Shown: positions 27,406-31,553 of the stretch, one piece after another
Layout: the number at the start of each line of letters is the position of its first letter
Position numbering within the stretch: the stretch's first letter is position 1
Origin: Thermoleophilia bacterium SCSIO 60948
GTDB taxonomy: Bacteria; Actinomycetota; Thermoleophilia; Solirubrobacterales; 70-9
Assembly (NCBI GenBank): GCA_021496505.1
Contig: CP053031.1
Coordinates: 1,054,001-1,118,000, forward strand
Length of the DNA: 64,000 nucleotides
Reading direction: 5' to 3'
Notes under the pieces: model-generated
Database searches by the model: none
What the model saw: the letters and a program-made list of their open reading frames with translations, nothing else
What the model was told of the DNA's origin: nothing
Position numbers and translations under genes: made by a program

Positions 27406-27897
27406 CTAGAGCACACCGCTCGGTTCGGCCGAGCGGCGGGCGGAGGCAGACTCGTCGAGCTCGGCGCCGATCCGGCGCCAGAGCTCGGCGAGCTCCTCCT
27501 GCTCGCTGGCGTCGAGCTGGCTGAGGAAGTGTCGGCGCACACCGGCGAGGTGGTCGGGTCGCGCGGCCTCGATCCGCCCGCGACCCTCCGCCGTCAGGAC
27601 CGCCAGGGTCCCCCGCGCATCGTCGGGGCACGGCGCACGCTCGACCAGCCCGCTGCGCTCGAGCCGGTCGACGAGCCGCGTGAGACCGCTGCGGCTCAGC
27701 AGCAGCCCGTCGGCGATCGCGCTCATCCGCATCCGTCCGTCAGGCGCGTCGGCGAGTTGCATCAACACCTCATAGGAGGTCAGGGGCAGGTCGTGGCGCT
27801 CGATCAGCTCGGCGTCGAGCCGCGCGACAACCCGCTGGTGGATGCGCAGGAACCCCTTCCAGGATCCGAGCTCGCGTTCGTCGAGGAGAGCGCCCAT
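27406..27897 (-). CDS. MarR-family transcriptional regulator
   Basis: 163 aa. The winged-helix core is typical: LTSYEVLMQLADAPDGRMRMSAIADGLLLSRSGLTRLVDRLERSGLV, wing EDARGTLAVLT-like (here CPDDARGTLAVLTAEGR). ATG at 27897 fits family length; an in-frame open frame extends further upstream through the operators. Divergent from an MhqO-like dioxygenase gene with two matching palindromes between. The arrangement mirrors the MhqR-controlled quinone-detoxification genes of Firmicutes. No obvious sensing Cys beyond the one in APCPDD. Confidence 0.92.
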   Translation of the reverse strand: MGALLDERELGSWKGFLRIHQRVVARLDAELIERHDLPLTSYEVLMQLADAPDGRMRMSAIADGLLLSRSGLTRLVDRLERSGLVERAPCPDDARGTLAVLTAEGRGRIEAARPDHLAGVRRHFLSQLDASEQEELAELWRRIGAELDESASARRSAEPSGVL

Positions 27898-27917
27898 GAG
27901 GCGATCGTAGCGGATAG

Positions 27918-27929
27918 TTGCACTTGCAA
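27918..27929. promoter_or_regulatory. MarR operator candidate 1
   Basis: TTGC-ACTT-GCAA, within AGTTGCACTTGCAATC. It shares the flanks AGTTGC/GCAATC with a second site 28 bp downstream, so both are probably bound by the divergent MarR protein. It lies 20 bp from the marR ATG. Confidence 0.7.
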
Positions 27930-27945
27930 TCACCTGGTATAGTAG

Positions 27946-27957
27946 TTGCAGAAGCAA
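27946..27957. promoter_or_regulatory. MarR operator candidate 2
   Basis: TTGC-AGAA-GCAA, within AGTTGCAGAAGCAATC, 28 bp centre to centre from site 1. A -10-like TATAGT (27938-27943) lies between the two sites on the plus strand, so occupancy should block the mhqO-like promoter. Confidence 0.7.
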
Positions 27958-27995
27958 TCAAATTCCCGGACCTGAAGCCAGGGAGGACGTTCCAA

Positions 27996-28916
27996 ATGCA
28001 GCTCGAGGGCATCCACCACATCACCGCGATCACGGCCGACGCGCAGCAGAACGTCGACTTCTACGCCGGCACGTTGGGGCTGCGGATGGTCAAGAAGACC
28101 GTCAACCAGGACGAGCCCAGCGTCTACCACCTGTTCTACGCCGACGAGGACGGCAGCCCTGGTGCCGACCTGACCTTCTTCGAGTTCCCGCACGCCGCTC
28201 TCGGCCGGGCCGGAGCGGGGATGGTGTACCGGATCGGCTGGCGCGTCGCCTCGGAGGCCTCGCTCGACTTCTGGGCCGACCGTCTCGCCTCGCAGGGCTT
28301 CGAGTCCGAGCGGGTCGGGGACGTCCTGCGCTTCCGTGACCCCGAGGGCCTCGAGCACGAGCTCGGCGTCGACGACTCGGGCGATGATCCGCTGATCGCC
28401 GAGCACCCGGAGGTGCCGGCAGAGCACGCGCTGCGCGGCTTCTCGAGCGCTCGCGCCTACTCCGCCGATCCCTCTCGCAGCCAGCGCCTACTCGACGGGC
28501 TCGGCTTCGAGGGCTCCGACGGGTCCTACGAGCTCCGCGGATCCGAGCGCGGCGGCACGTGGCACTACGACGCTCCGCCGGCCGAGCGCGGGATCCAGGG
28601 GGCCGGAACGGTCCACCACATCGCCTGGGCCTCGCGGATGGACGACCAGGAGGCGTGGCGCGACCGCGCCGCCGAGTACGGCGCGCGGCCGACCGACGTC
28701 ATCGATCGCTTCTGGTTCCGGTCGATCTATTTCCGCGAGCCGAGCGGGGTGCTGTTCGAGATCGCGACGATAGGCCCCGGCTTCGACGCCGACGAGCCGA
28801 AGGAGTCGCTCGGCGAGTCGCTGGTCCTGCCGCCGTTCCTCGAGGACCGGCGAGAGCAGATCGAGCGCGTCCTGACCCCGATCACGAATCCGCGCCAGGC
28901 CCGCGAGGCGAGCTGA
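27996..28916 (+). CDS. Ring-cleaving dioxygenase, glyoxalase fold, MhqO type
   Basis: 306 aa with two vicinal-oxygen-chelate repeats (residues about 1-150 and 155-290). Metal ligands visible are His in GIHHITAIT, His in TVHHIAWAS and Glu in LFEIATIGPGFD. The C-terminus LVLPPFLEDRREQIERVLTPI is typical of the MhqO group, which is linked to hydroquinone/catechol detoxification. ATG at 27996 follows GGGAGG. It is followed by an MhqD-like hydrolase 1 bp after the stop codon. Confidence 0.9.
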   Translation: MQLEGIHHITAITADAQQNVDFYAGTLGLRMVKKTVNQDEPSVYHLFYADEDGSPGADLTFFEFPHAALGRAGAGMVYRIGWRVASEASLDFWADRLASQGFESERVGDVLRFRDPEGLEHELGVDDSGDDPLIAEHPEVPAEHALRGFSSARAYSADPSRSQRLLDGLGFEGSDGSYELRGSERGGTWHYDAPPAERGIQGAGTVHHIAWASRMDDQEAWRDRAAEYGARPTDVIDRFWFRSIYFREPSGVLFEIATIGPGFDADEPKESLGESLVLPPFLEDRREQIERVLTPITNPRQAREAS

Positions 28917-28917
28917 G

Positions 28918-29559
28918 GTGGCCGATCTCGTCCATCGTCTGCGCGAGCCCGACGGGGATCCCGAGGGCGCGCTGATCCTCAACCACGGCCGGGGGTCGGA
29001 CGAAAACGATCTCTTCGGGCTCCTCGACGAGCTCGACCCGGAGCGTCGTCTGCTCGGCGTGACGACCGGTGCGCCCCTGACCGGCATCCCGCCGGGCGGG
29101 CGCCACTGGTACGTCGTGCCACGGGTCGGATATCCGGAGCCGAGGACGTTCGCGAGCAGCCTCGCGATGCTCGACGGGTTCATCGACCGGCTGCTCGCCG
29201 AGCGCGGCATCGCACCGGAGCGGACCGTGATCGGCGGTTTCTCGATGGGCAGCGTGATGTCGTATGCGACCGGGCTCGGACCGGGTCGGCCCCGTCCCGC
29301 CGGCATCATCGCGATGTCCGGCTTCGTGCCCACCGTCGAGGGCTGGGAACCCGAGCTCGAGGGCCGCGAGGGTCTGCCGGTCCTGATCGCGCACGGACGC
29401 CAGGACCCGGTGATCGAGTTCGGCTTCGCCGATCGCGCCGCGGCCCTGCTCGAGCCGGCCGGTCTCGATGTTCGTCGCGTCAGCACCGAAACGGGTCACT
29501 GGGTGGCGCCCGAGGCCCTCGACGCGGGCCGCGAGCTGGTCGCGGAAGCGTTGGCCTAG
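28918..29559 (+). CDS. Alpha/beta hydrolase, MhqD-like (carboxylesterase/phospholipase family)
   Basis: 213 aa, GTG start. The nucleophile elbow is GFSMGS (Ser about residue 108). The acid is Asp in HGRQDPVIEF and the base is His in TETGHWVAPE. The oxyanion region LNHGRGSDEND near the start is characteristic. Such hydrolases pair with MhqO dioxygenases and are thought to process ring-cleavage products. Immediate linkage to the dioxygenase and the divergent MarR operator supports co-regulation. Confidence 0.9.
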   Translation: MADLVHRLREPDGDPEGALILNHGRGSDENDLFGLLDELDPERRLLGVTTGAPLTGIPPGGRHWYVVPRVGYPEPRTFASSLAMLDGFIDRLLAERGIAPERTVIGGFSMGSVMSYATGLGPGRPRPAGIIAMSGFVPTVEGWEPELEGREGLPVLIAHGRQDPVIEFGFADRAAALLEPAGLDVRRVSTETGHWVAPEALDAGRELVAEALA

Positions 29560-29578: not shown

Positions 29579-29592
29579 CGAACATGTGTTCG
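29579..29592. promoter_or_regulatory. LexA (SOS) box overlapping the radical SAM start codon
   Basis: CGAACATGTGTTCG has the same CGAACA/TGTTCG arms as the lexA box at 18701. Its last G is the first base of the GTG at 29592. A LexA dimer here would cover the initiation region of the gene. Confidence 0.9.
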
Positions 29593-31553
29593 TGCGTTGG
29601 GAGAACCTGTCGCTGGATCGCGAGGACGAGGGGGCTGACGCCAAGCTCCCCGGCTTCCGCGATCCAGCGCGGGTGCGCACGTTCGACGCGCCCGAGGCGC
29701 TCGGAACCCGCTTCTACGAGGTCGGCGCCCGCTCGATCCTCAACCGCGTTCCCGAGCGATCGCGGATGCCGTTCAGGTGGACCATCAACCCTTATCGCGG
29801 ATGCAGTCATGCCTGCGCCTACTGCGTGTCGGGCGATACCCAGATCCTCCTCGCGGACGGCCGCTCGAAGCGGATGGACGCGATCGAGGTCGATGACCGC
29901 GTGGTGGGCACGAAGCGGATCGGCCGCTACCGACGTTACGCAGAGGCGACCGTCACCGACCACTGGGCGACGGGGCGCCGCCCCGCCTACCGAGTGACCC
30001 TCGCCGACGGCACTGAACTGATCGCGAGTGCCGACCATCGATTCCTGACAGACAGGGGCTGGAAGCACGTGCTCGACGCGCCGGGTCCTGGGTCCCAGCG
30101 TCCCCACCTGACCCTGAACAACAGATTGCTCGGTTTCGGATCGATCCCCCCGGCGCCGGACCACGACGCGGACTACCGGGCGGGCTACCTGTGCGGGATG
30201 ATCCGCGGTGACGGAAGTCTCGGCCACTACCGCTACAAGCGCCCCGGCCGGACATCTTCGGACGTGTACCGGTTTCGCCTCGCGTTGATCGACTTCGACG
30301 CGCTCGATCGGACGAAGCGCTACCTGAGTCGTGAAGGAATCGATTGCGGGGAGTTCCTGTTCCAGCCCGCCGGAGCGATCGGGTCGTCCCGTGAGGTCAG
30401 AGCGATCCGGACGGGTCGCAGAAGCGACTTCGAGACCATCTCGAGGTTGATCGAGTGGCCCGCCACCCCTTCGGACTCGTGGGTTCGCGGCTATCTGGGT
30501 GGCGATCCGGGAGGGCCGGACCGTGTTCGGTCGGTTCGAATCCGCGGGCGGCTGAATGAACGCCTGCGGTTCCTCTCAGTCTGCGATTCGGCCGTCGCGC
30601 GGAAGCGCACCATCGTCGGGAGCGCGGTCAAGTTGAAAGCGGACCTGCGGGTCGTCTCGATCGAACCGGTCGGCGAGCAGTCCCTCTGGGACATGACGAC
30701 GTCGACGGGGGACTTCGTGGCGAACGGAGTGATCAGCCACAACTGCTTTGCCCGGCCGACCCACAAGTTCCTCGACTTCGGCGCCGGCCGCGATTTCGAG
30801 CGCGAGATCGTCGTCAAGACAAATGCCCCCGAGCGTCTGCGGGCCGAGCTCGCCAAGCCGAGCTGGAACCGCGAGCACGTCGCGCTCGGCACCAACACCG
30901 ACCCCTACCAATGGGTCGAGGGGCGCTACCGCCTGATGGTCGGCATCTGGGAGGCGATGCGCGACTTCGCGAACCCGTGCTCGGTCCTGACCAAGTCGCC
31001 GCTGCTGCTGCGCGACCTCGACCTGATGAAGCAGATCGCCGCGGGGACCGAGTTTCACGCCAACCTCTCGATCCCGACACTCGACGAGCGGGCCTGGCGC
31101 GAGACCGAGCCCCACACCCCGAACCCGCGCAAGCGGCTCGAGGCGGTCGCGGCGCTGAACGAAGCCGGGATCCCGACGGGGATCCTGATCGCGCCGCTGA
31201 TGCCCGGGATCAACGACTCGCCGGCCCAGGTCGAGGAGATATTGCGCCTGGCCGCGGAGGCCGGAGCCACGAACGTCGGCGGGATCGGGCTTCACCTGCG
31301 TGGCGAGACGCGCGAGGTCTTCTTCGACTGGCTCGCCGAGTTCCGCCCCGATCTGATCGAGCTGTATGAGCGCCTCTACTCGCGCGGCGCGTACCTGCCG
31401 AAGCCCGAGCGCGAGCGGCTTGCCAAGCTGGCGCGCGGGCGCCACCCGCCGCGTCGCTTCCTGCGCGAGGTCGGCGAGCGTGCCGAGGCGTCAGAGGCGG
31501 GCGGTCGCGGAACCGCGGTGCCGCGAGAGGCGACGCAGCCGGGCCTCTTCTAG
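29592..31553 (+). CDS. Rv2578c-family (SplB-like) radical SAM protein containing an intein
   Basis: 653 aa before splicing, about 346 aa after. The GTG at 29592 gives MRWENLSL, matching the N-terminus I recall for Mycobacterium Rv2578c. The radical SAM cluster motif is Cys71 and Cys75 in RGCSHACAY, then, after a 307-aa intein, the third Cys (385) in CFARPTH. The remaining barrel is standard (LGTNTDPYQWVEG, SVLTKSPLLLRDLDLM, NLSIPTLDE, PLMPGINDS). The family (COG1533) includes spore photoproduct lyase relatives. The SOS box at the start predicts DNA-damage induction. The 3' end overlaps the convergent MFS gene by 4 bp. Confidence 0.93.
   Translation: MRWENLSLDREDEGADAKLPGFRDPARVRTFDAPEALGTRFYEVGARSILNRVPERSRMPFRWTINPYRGCSHACAYCVSGDTQILLADGRSKRMDAIEVDDRVVGTKRIGRYRRYAEATVTDHWATGRRPAYRVTLADGTELIASADHRFLTDRGWKHVLDAPGPGSQRPHLTLNNRLLGFGSIPPAPDHDADYRAGYLCGMIRGDGSLGHYRYKRPGRTSSDVYRFRLALIDFDALDRTKRYLSREGIDCGEFLFQPAGAIGSSREVRAIRTGRRSDFETISRLIEWPATPSDSWVRGYLGGDPGGPDRVRSVRIRGRLNERLRFLSVCDSAVARKRTIVGSAVKLKADLRVVSIEPVGEQSLWDMTTSTGDFVANGVISHNCFARPTHKFLDFGAGRDFEREIVVKTNAPERLRAELAKPSWNREHVALGTNTDPYQWVEGRYRLMVGIWEAMRDFANPCSVLTKSPLLLRDLDLMKQIAAGTEFHANLSIPTLDERAWRETEPHTPNPRKRLEAVAALNEAGIPTGILIAPLMPGINDSPAQVEEILRLAAEAGATNVGGIGLHLRGETREVFFDWLAEFRPDLIELYERLYSRGAYLPKPERERLAKLARGRHPPRRFLREVGERAEASEAGGRGTAVPREATQPGLF
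29823..30743 (+). mobile_element. Intein with LAGLIDADG homing endonuclease, inserted in the radical SAM CxxxCxxC motif
   Basis: 307 aa. The N-terminal splice block begins CVSGDTQILLADGR (Cys1). Block B is IASADHRFLTDRGW. The endonuclease core has a first LAGLIDADG motif YLCGMIRGDGSL (about intein residue 121). A weaker second motif, WVRGYLGGDPGG (about 218), keeps the acidic residue. The C-terminal block is WDMTTSTGDFVANGVISHN, with the +1 residue Cys. Codon use is less G/C-biased than in the exteins (AGT, AAA, TTG, GGA appear), which fits horizontal entry. Confidence 0.95.

Follow-up and report, generated by a model that had tools for sequence, protein, structure and literature searches.

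How can a radical SAM enzyme work when its cluster-binding motif is split by 307 residues, and how did the split come to lie there? One gene in the window (the whole stretch of 64,000 nucleotides from Thermoleophilia bacterium SCSIO 60948 analysed here) raises this question. Its open reading frame encodes a precursor of 655 aa, 348 aa once spliced (Table 1). The element that splits it is 921 nt long and takes up precursor residues 80-386. It starts with CVSGDTQILLADG, ends with GDFVANGVISHN, and Cys+1 follows. A preliminary description had called an intein at 29823-30743. These coordinates are exact: C1 opens the element, HN closes it before Cys+1, and the models NF038136 and TIGR01445 agree. 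The motif is laid out as GC-SHA-C-AY, then CVSGDTQ...VISHN, then C-FARP. Once joined, the flanks NPYRGCSHACAY-CFARPTHK form the CxxxCxxC motif of a radical SAM enzyme, in the form CSHACAYC. The predicted junction peptide after splicing spans CSHACAYCFARPTHK.

Table 1. Features of the interrupted gene in the window, and frameshifted intein-free genes in related genomes.
Feature	Position in window	Strand	Basis or remark
Precursor gene, intein-containing Rv2578c-type radical SAM protein	29586..31553	+	NF038136, NF038135 and Pfam Radical_SAM matches
N-extein, 79 aa, ends ...NPYRGCSHACAY	29586..29822	+	Matches intein-free homologues
First cluster cysteine codon, Cys-7	29802..29804	+	Direct reading
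Second cluster cysteine codon, Cys-3	29814..29816	+	Direct reading; -3 as in the MoaA redox trap
Class 1 intein, 307 aa, Hint splicing domain and decayed LAGLIDADG endonuclease	29823..30743	+	HMMs, alignment, AF2, structural matches
Intein Cys1 codon, nucleophile; at the third-ligand place in the precursor	29823..29825	+	Invariant in intein alignment
First LAGLIDADG motif, GYLCGMIRGDG, acidic residue retained	30183..30215	+	Alignment
Second LAGLIDADG motif, broken, GYLGGDPGG vs consensus GFLAGIFDAEG	30489..30515	+	Alignment; low pLDDT at residues 231-240
C-terminal splicing region, block F Asp290, block G His306-Asn307	30630..30743	+	Intein alignment
Cys+1 codon, third cluster ligand and splicing nucleophile	30744..30746	+	Sequence reading, homologues
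C-extein, radical SAM core, starts CFARPTHK	30744..31553	+	Sequence reading, family matches
G014 (L196/L030), intein-free Rv2578c gene			+5 nt between second and third cluster-cysteine codons
G019 (L018), intein-free Rv2578c gene			+2 nt between second and third cluster-cysteine codons
G027 (L021/L204), intein-free Rv2578c gene			+5 nt between second and third cluster-cysteine codons
G040 (L017/L199), intein-free Rv2578c gene			+1 nt between second and third cluster-cysteine codons
G324 (L198), intein-free Rv2578c gene			+1 nt between second and third cluster-cysteine codons

The element has the hallmarks of a class 1 intein. The Cys at position 1 is invariant, block B ([T/S]xxH) reads SADH with an invariant H72, and H306-N307 stand at the end, before C+1. 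Altogether 25 columns of the intein alignment are invariant, among them C1, H72, D290, H306 and N307. The model for the intein N-terminal region, TIGR01445, scores above its cut-off. The AF2 model (pLDDT 91.5, pTM 0.83) has the Hint fold, and its structural matches in Foldseek include PI-PfuI, PI-SceI and the inteins of DnaB and RecA. Also among the top structural matches is 3nzm, a DnaE intein whose N-extein is caught in a redox trap (Cys-3). Codon use inside the intein had been described as less biased, and the CAI-like index bears this out (0.56, as against 0.73 in the exteins), with the caveat that the short N-extein alone has an index of 0.61. GC3 is 0.83 in the N-extein, 0.83 in the intein and 0.92 in the C-extein.

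The insertion point had been put just before the third cluster cysteine. Alignment with intein-free Rv2578c homologues places it exactly there, since homologues from the window's family and order read straight through NPYRGC-xHxC-x-[YF]-CFAR; their empty site falls precisely at the codon of the window intein. Among 61 related genomes, seven carry the intein (the window's included) and more than 20 have the gene without it. A class-wide survey gives the same picture: the intein is present in some genomes and absent from most relatives.

An ordinary domain, inserted in frame and never excised, would explain the open frame and nothing else. The terminal splicing residues, the intein HMM matches, the exact empty sites and the existence of mini and full-length allelic forms all contradict it, and we give it hardly any credence. 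The element is almost certainly a class 1 intein, and the codon it occupies a conserved homing site in radical SAM genes of the Rv2578c/PA0069 type. Once the precursor is translated, its Hint domain would cut itself out by means of Cys1, [S]xxH72, Asp290, His306-Asn307 and Cys+1. Excision would join CSHACAY to CFARP and thereby restore CxxxCxxC. We infer from the sequence both that the window intein splices and the order of the steps.

The intein and its host family are already catalogued by NCBI, as NF038136 ("intein-containing Rv2578c family radical SAM protein"), and are widespread. This model is the best family for the window protein in a profile search (645.6 bits, E 8e-194), aligned end to end over residues 3-614 and profile positions 1-562 of 574. 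NF038136 proteins share the host family and the insertion codon with the window copy. They differ in that the window intein is shorter, has a broken second LAGLIDADG motif and scores below the curated cut-off of 700 bits. The plain Rv2578c model, NF038135, also stays below its cut-off (394.3 vs 430 bits). Since the majority of intein-bearing relatives in the same class likewise score under the NF038136 cut-off, we file the window protein, by its sequence, as an allelic relative of this set that fails formal membership by score. A search of the available literature for papers on Rv2578c inteins found none. The preliminary description was right about the intein, the host family, the insertion point and the role of Cys+1; it missed the NCBI name, the wide spread and the dead endonuclease. 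Elsewhere in the source genome, outside the window, there is a second, more distant intein-like match to NF038136 (G000:C1:1421995-1423170, + strand, E 2.5e-9) in an open frame of 1140 aa.

How far does the insertion site extend beyond this family? A DNA pattern combining CxxxCx[YF]C with an intein start, applied to one genome per species, finds at least 120 stretches; the pattern demanded Cys1, and thus the frequency of Cys1 use cannot be estimated from it. Among the matches listed, about 90 are NPYRGC-type radical SAM genes with an intein at the identical codon, from Actinomycetota, Pseudomonadota and others. One proteobacterial extein, L033, clearly belongs to the PA0069 family (474 bits against a cut-off of 360). 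The AmmeMemoRadiSam radical SAM enzyme (TIGR04337, 300 bits, cut-off 220) also has an intein before its third cysteine, in Chloroflexota and Rokubacteria (L083, L099, L063, L064, L031, L128). Hence same-site inteins occur in at least three radical SAM families. In the PA0069-family protein (L033) and the AmmeMemoRadiSam proteins (L083, L099) the intein directly precedes the third CxxxCxxC cysteine, as it does in the window protein. Length and sequence set the AmmeMemoRadiSam inteins (444-445 aa, with VSN at the end) apart as a separate lineage. One of them, L063, is shorter and ends in VKN, followed by CQN. The intein-containing tetraether lipid synthase Tes (NF045703) is likewise a named intein-bearing radical SAM enzyme.

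Intein lengths among the matches listed fall into three classes: mini-inteins of 137-174 aa, inteins of about 280-310 aa and inteins of about 330-350 aa. In the intein tree, sequences cluster imperfectly by taxon, with several crossings between groups. The inteins are distributed sporadically within families, and mini (137-174 aa) and full (~340 aa) forms share one site, a pattern that a homing cycle should produce. The site was probably chosen by homing, the DNA of the cluster motif being the most conserved stretch of the gene. Between closely related allelic inteins, pairwise dN/dS of the splicing region is 0.08-0.31; thus the splicing part is under selection to work. Some intein-bearing alleles may be dead, because one intein-bearing Rv2578c gene has an internal TAG (L158 in G294) and another a frameshift (L160 in G239).

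The window copy has very probably lost the ability to home, judging from its second LAGLIDADG motif, which is broken by a two-residue deletion and a change from A to P, and from the loss of ~33 residues after it. Allelic inteins longer than 320 aa have Ala after the Asp of the second motif in 43 of 43 cases and the IFDAEG form in nearly all. A LAGLIDADG homing endonuclease needs two intact motifs, and the window intein has one. With the endonuclease that spread it inactive, the element would persist because it is inherited and has to be spliced out. Could the decay reach further, so that the intein is dead and the gene a pseudogene? The decayed endonuclease would fit this, as would the broken intein-bearing or scarred alleles among relatives. 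Yet the frame is open across all 655 codons, every splicing residue is present, the Hint fold is modelled with confidence and the extein is well conserved, so that we regard a pseudogene as very improbable.

If the intein works, it must do so before the enzyme does. The radical SAM core is split at its cluster motif by 307 residues, hence activity can safely be taken to require prior splicing. The preliminary description went further and stated that no cluster can be built before splicing is complete. The need for prior splicing holds. The statement on the cluster is conjectural and clashes with the description's own observation that Cys1 takes the third-ligand position in the precursor, which is correct: Cys-7, Cys-3 and Cys1 have the exact CxxxCxxC spacing (CAY followed by C). 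This spacing is not special evidence of adaptation, because any intein with Cys1 that lands before the third cysteine recreates it, and most class 1 inteins begin with Cys. Geometry alone is weak evidence of adaptation.

The same geometry is nevertheless known from a regulated intein. The accounts of the Pyrococcus abyssi MoaA intein (Callahan 2011) given in PMC3922620 and PMC10663303 describe a radical SAM enzyme in which a disulfide between Cys-3 and Cys1 blocks splicing. The window intein has both residues of this redox trap, Cys at -3 and Cys1, in a radical SAM host. It differs from the MoaA intein, as these accounts present it, in belonging to another radical SAM family and another phylum, and the disulfide control is that of MoaA; the likeness drawn here is one of Cys-3/Cys1 spacing, taken from published descriptions. 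Because the MoaA intein has this geometry and is described as a redox trap, redox or metal control of splicing is possible by analogy, and the window intein is a new candidate for the MoaA-type mechanism.

Has the site then been shaped as an adaptive switch? In the oxidised or metal-replete precursor, a disulfide or a metal held by Cys-3 and Cys1 (with Cys-7) would block the first splicing step and hold an oxygen-sensitive enzyme off until conditions are suitable. The spacing identical to that of the MoaA intein speaks for such a switch. So, at first sight, does the precursor triad, which is kept in 105 of 105 Rv2578c, PA0069 and AmmeMemoRadiSam inteins with complete junctions among the matches listed. 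However, the triad follows automatically from Cys1 and the site, and the search patterns demanded it, so its conservation is no test. The intein is missing from most relatives, so the switch is dispensable, and the extein gene itself can be lost in Streptomyces (PMC12924846). On balance we consider an adaptive switch unlikely. Just upstream of the radical SAM gene (27406-29559) lie a MarR-type regulator (- strand), divergent from the next genes, and, on the + strand, a glyoxalase/dioxygenase-like gene and an MhqD-like esterase. The arrangement resembles quinone-stress (mhq) gene sets, with weak matches throughout.

The empty sites of relatives tell more about homing. In the window's order, five of ~67 intein-free copies are frameshifted at the empty site, by +1, +1, +2, +5 and +5 nt (Table 1). 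The pattern search picked up four scarred genes among 66 matches; the fifth, G019, escaped it owing to its Asn codon. When about 65 distinct intein-free genes are compared frame by frame, no other frameshift turns up in the whole coding region, and about 115 intein-free sites outside the order have zero scars. The difference between sites inside and outside the order gives a Fisher p of about 0.006 (counts slightly rounded). If frameshifts arose at random, four or five of them would fall into one 12-nt interval of about 900 nt with a probability of ~1e-6 or less. Random sequencing errors would not gather within one 6-nt interval. A caveat is assembly quality: four of the five scarred genomes exist as drafts, and the sample from outside the order is better assembled. 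The G040 assembly consists of one contig, although its +1 falls in a run of T; G324, from another assembly, shows the same CTTTTA.

In the extein tree, G027, G019, G014 and G324 each adjoin an intact intein-free gene. A common origin is disfavoured for the scars of G019 and G027 (p 0.04) and compatible with the data for G040 and G324 (p 0.37). Sequence comparison hence points to at least four independent events.

What made the scars? In the scarred genes the insertion point keeps its neighbouring bases intact; the additional ones sit 3-6 nt upstream. LAGLIDADG nucleases leave 4-nt overhangs, and the extra bases plausibly mark where such a nuclease could cut, the putative cleavage position. Imprecise loss of the intein does not fit, with TAY-TGC beside the insertion point intact and the extra bases upstream of it. 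Neither does an insertion-sequence footprint, as the +5 cases have no target-site duplication. Phage attachment can be set aside as well: serine integrases are not known to leave small insertions, and the phylum-wide sample holds no scars outside the order. The phage in question is Samy, whose serine integrase inserts into the Rv2578c-family gene of Streptomyces, where inactivation is tolerated (PMC12924846). The gene is thus used by two kinds of mobile element, an intein and a phage. One programmed frameshift cannot account for all scars, because the differing insert lengths need different shifts.

The two +1 scars may be an exception. Both (G040 and G324, of one genus) have the sequence TGY-CTTTTA-Y-TGC. 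Slippage by +1 is classically associated with CUU-U, and a +1 slip there would restore CLYC. If both descend from one ancestral event, a +1 recoding site, or something else, would be needed to explain why the frame is intact in all other respects.

Cutting by a homing endonuclease followed by end joining is the likeliest cause of the scars. We think it reasonably probable that the endonuclease of an allelic intein cut the empty site, that end joining added 1-5 bases and that the gene was thereby knocked out and the site made resistant. On the same reading, and with the same measured confidence, the scarred alleles would be the natural counterpart of gene-drive resistance alleles. They would be visible here because the radical SAM gene tolerates loss. 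Ku is encoded in all five scarred genomes and in 30 of 32 tested, and is therefore permissive rather than diagnostic. Genus g16 has both intein-bearing (G249, G286, G309) and scarred (G040, G324) alleles, in different species.

The window offers a clean, testable second system, in bacteria, for the published idea that a radical SAM enzyme can be gated by redox control of its splicing, and nature supplies many variants (mini, full, absent) at one codon. Since at least three radical SAM families have inteins at this site, trapping between Cys-3 and Cys1 could be a general side effect of the place where these inteins insert. The gating idea extends published work in a sensible way; what most deserves to be followed is the scars in relatives. 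If sequencing reads confirm them, they would show directly, in nature, that homing endonucleases leave behind bacterial alleles that are both knocked out and resistant.
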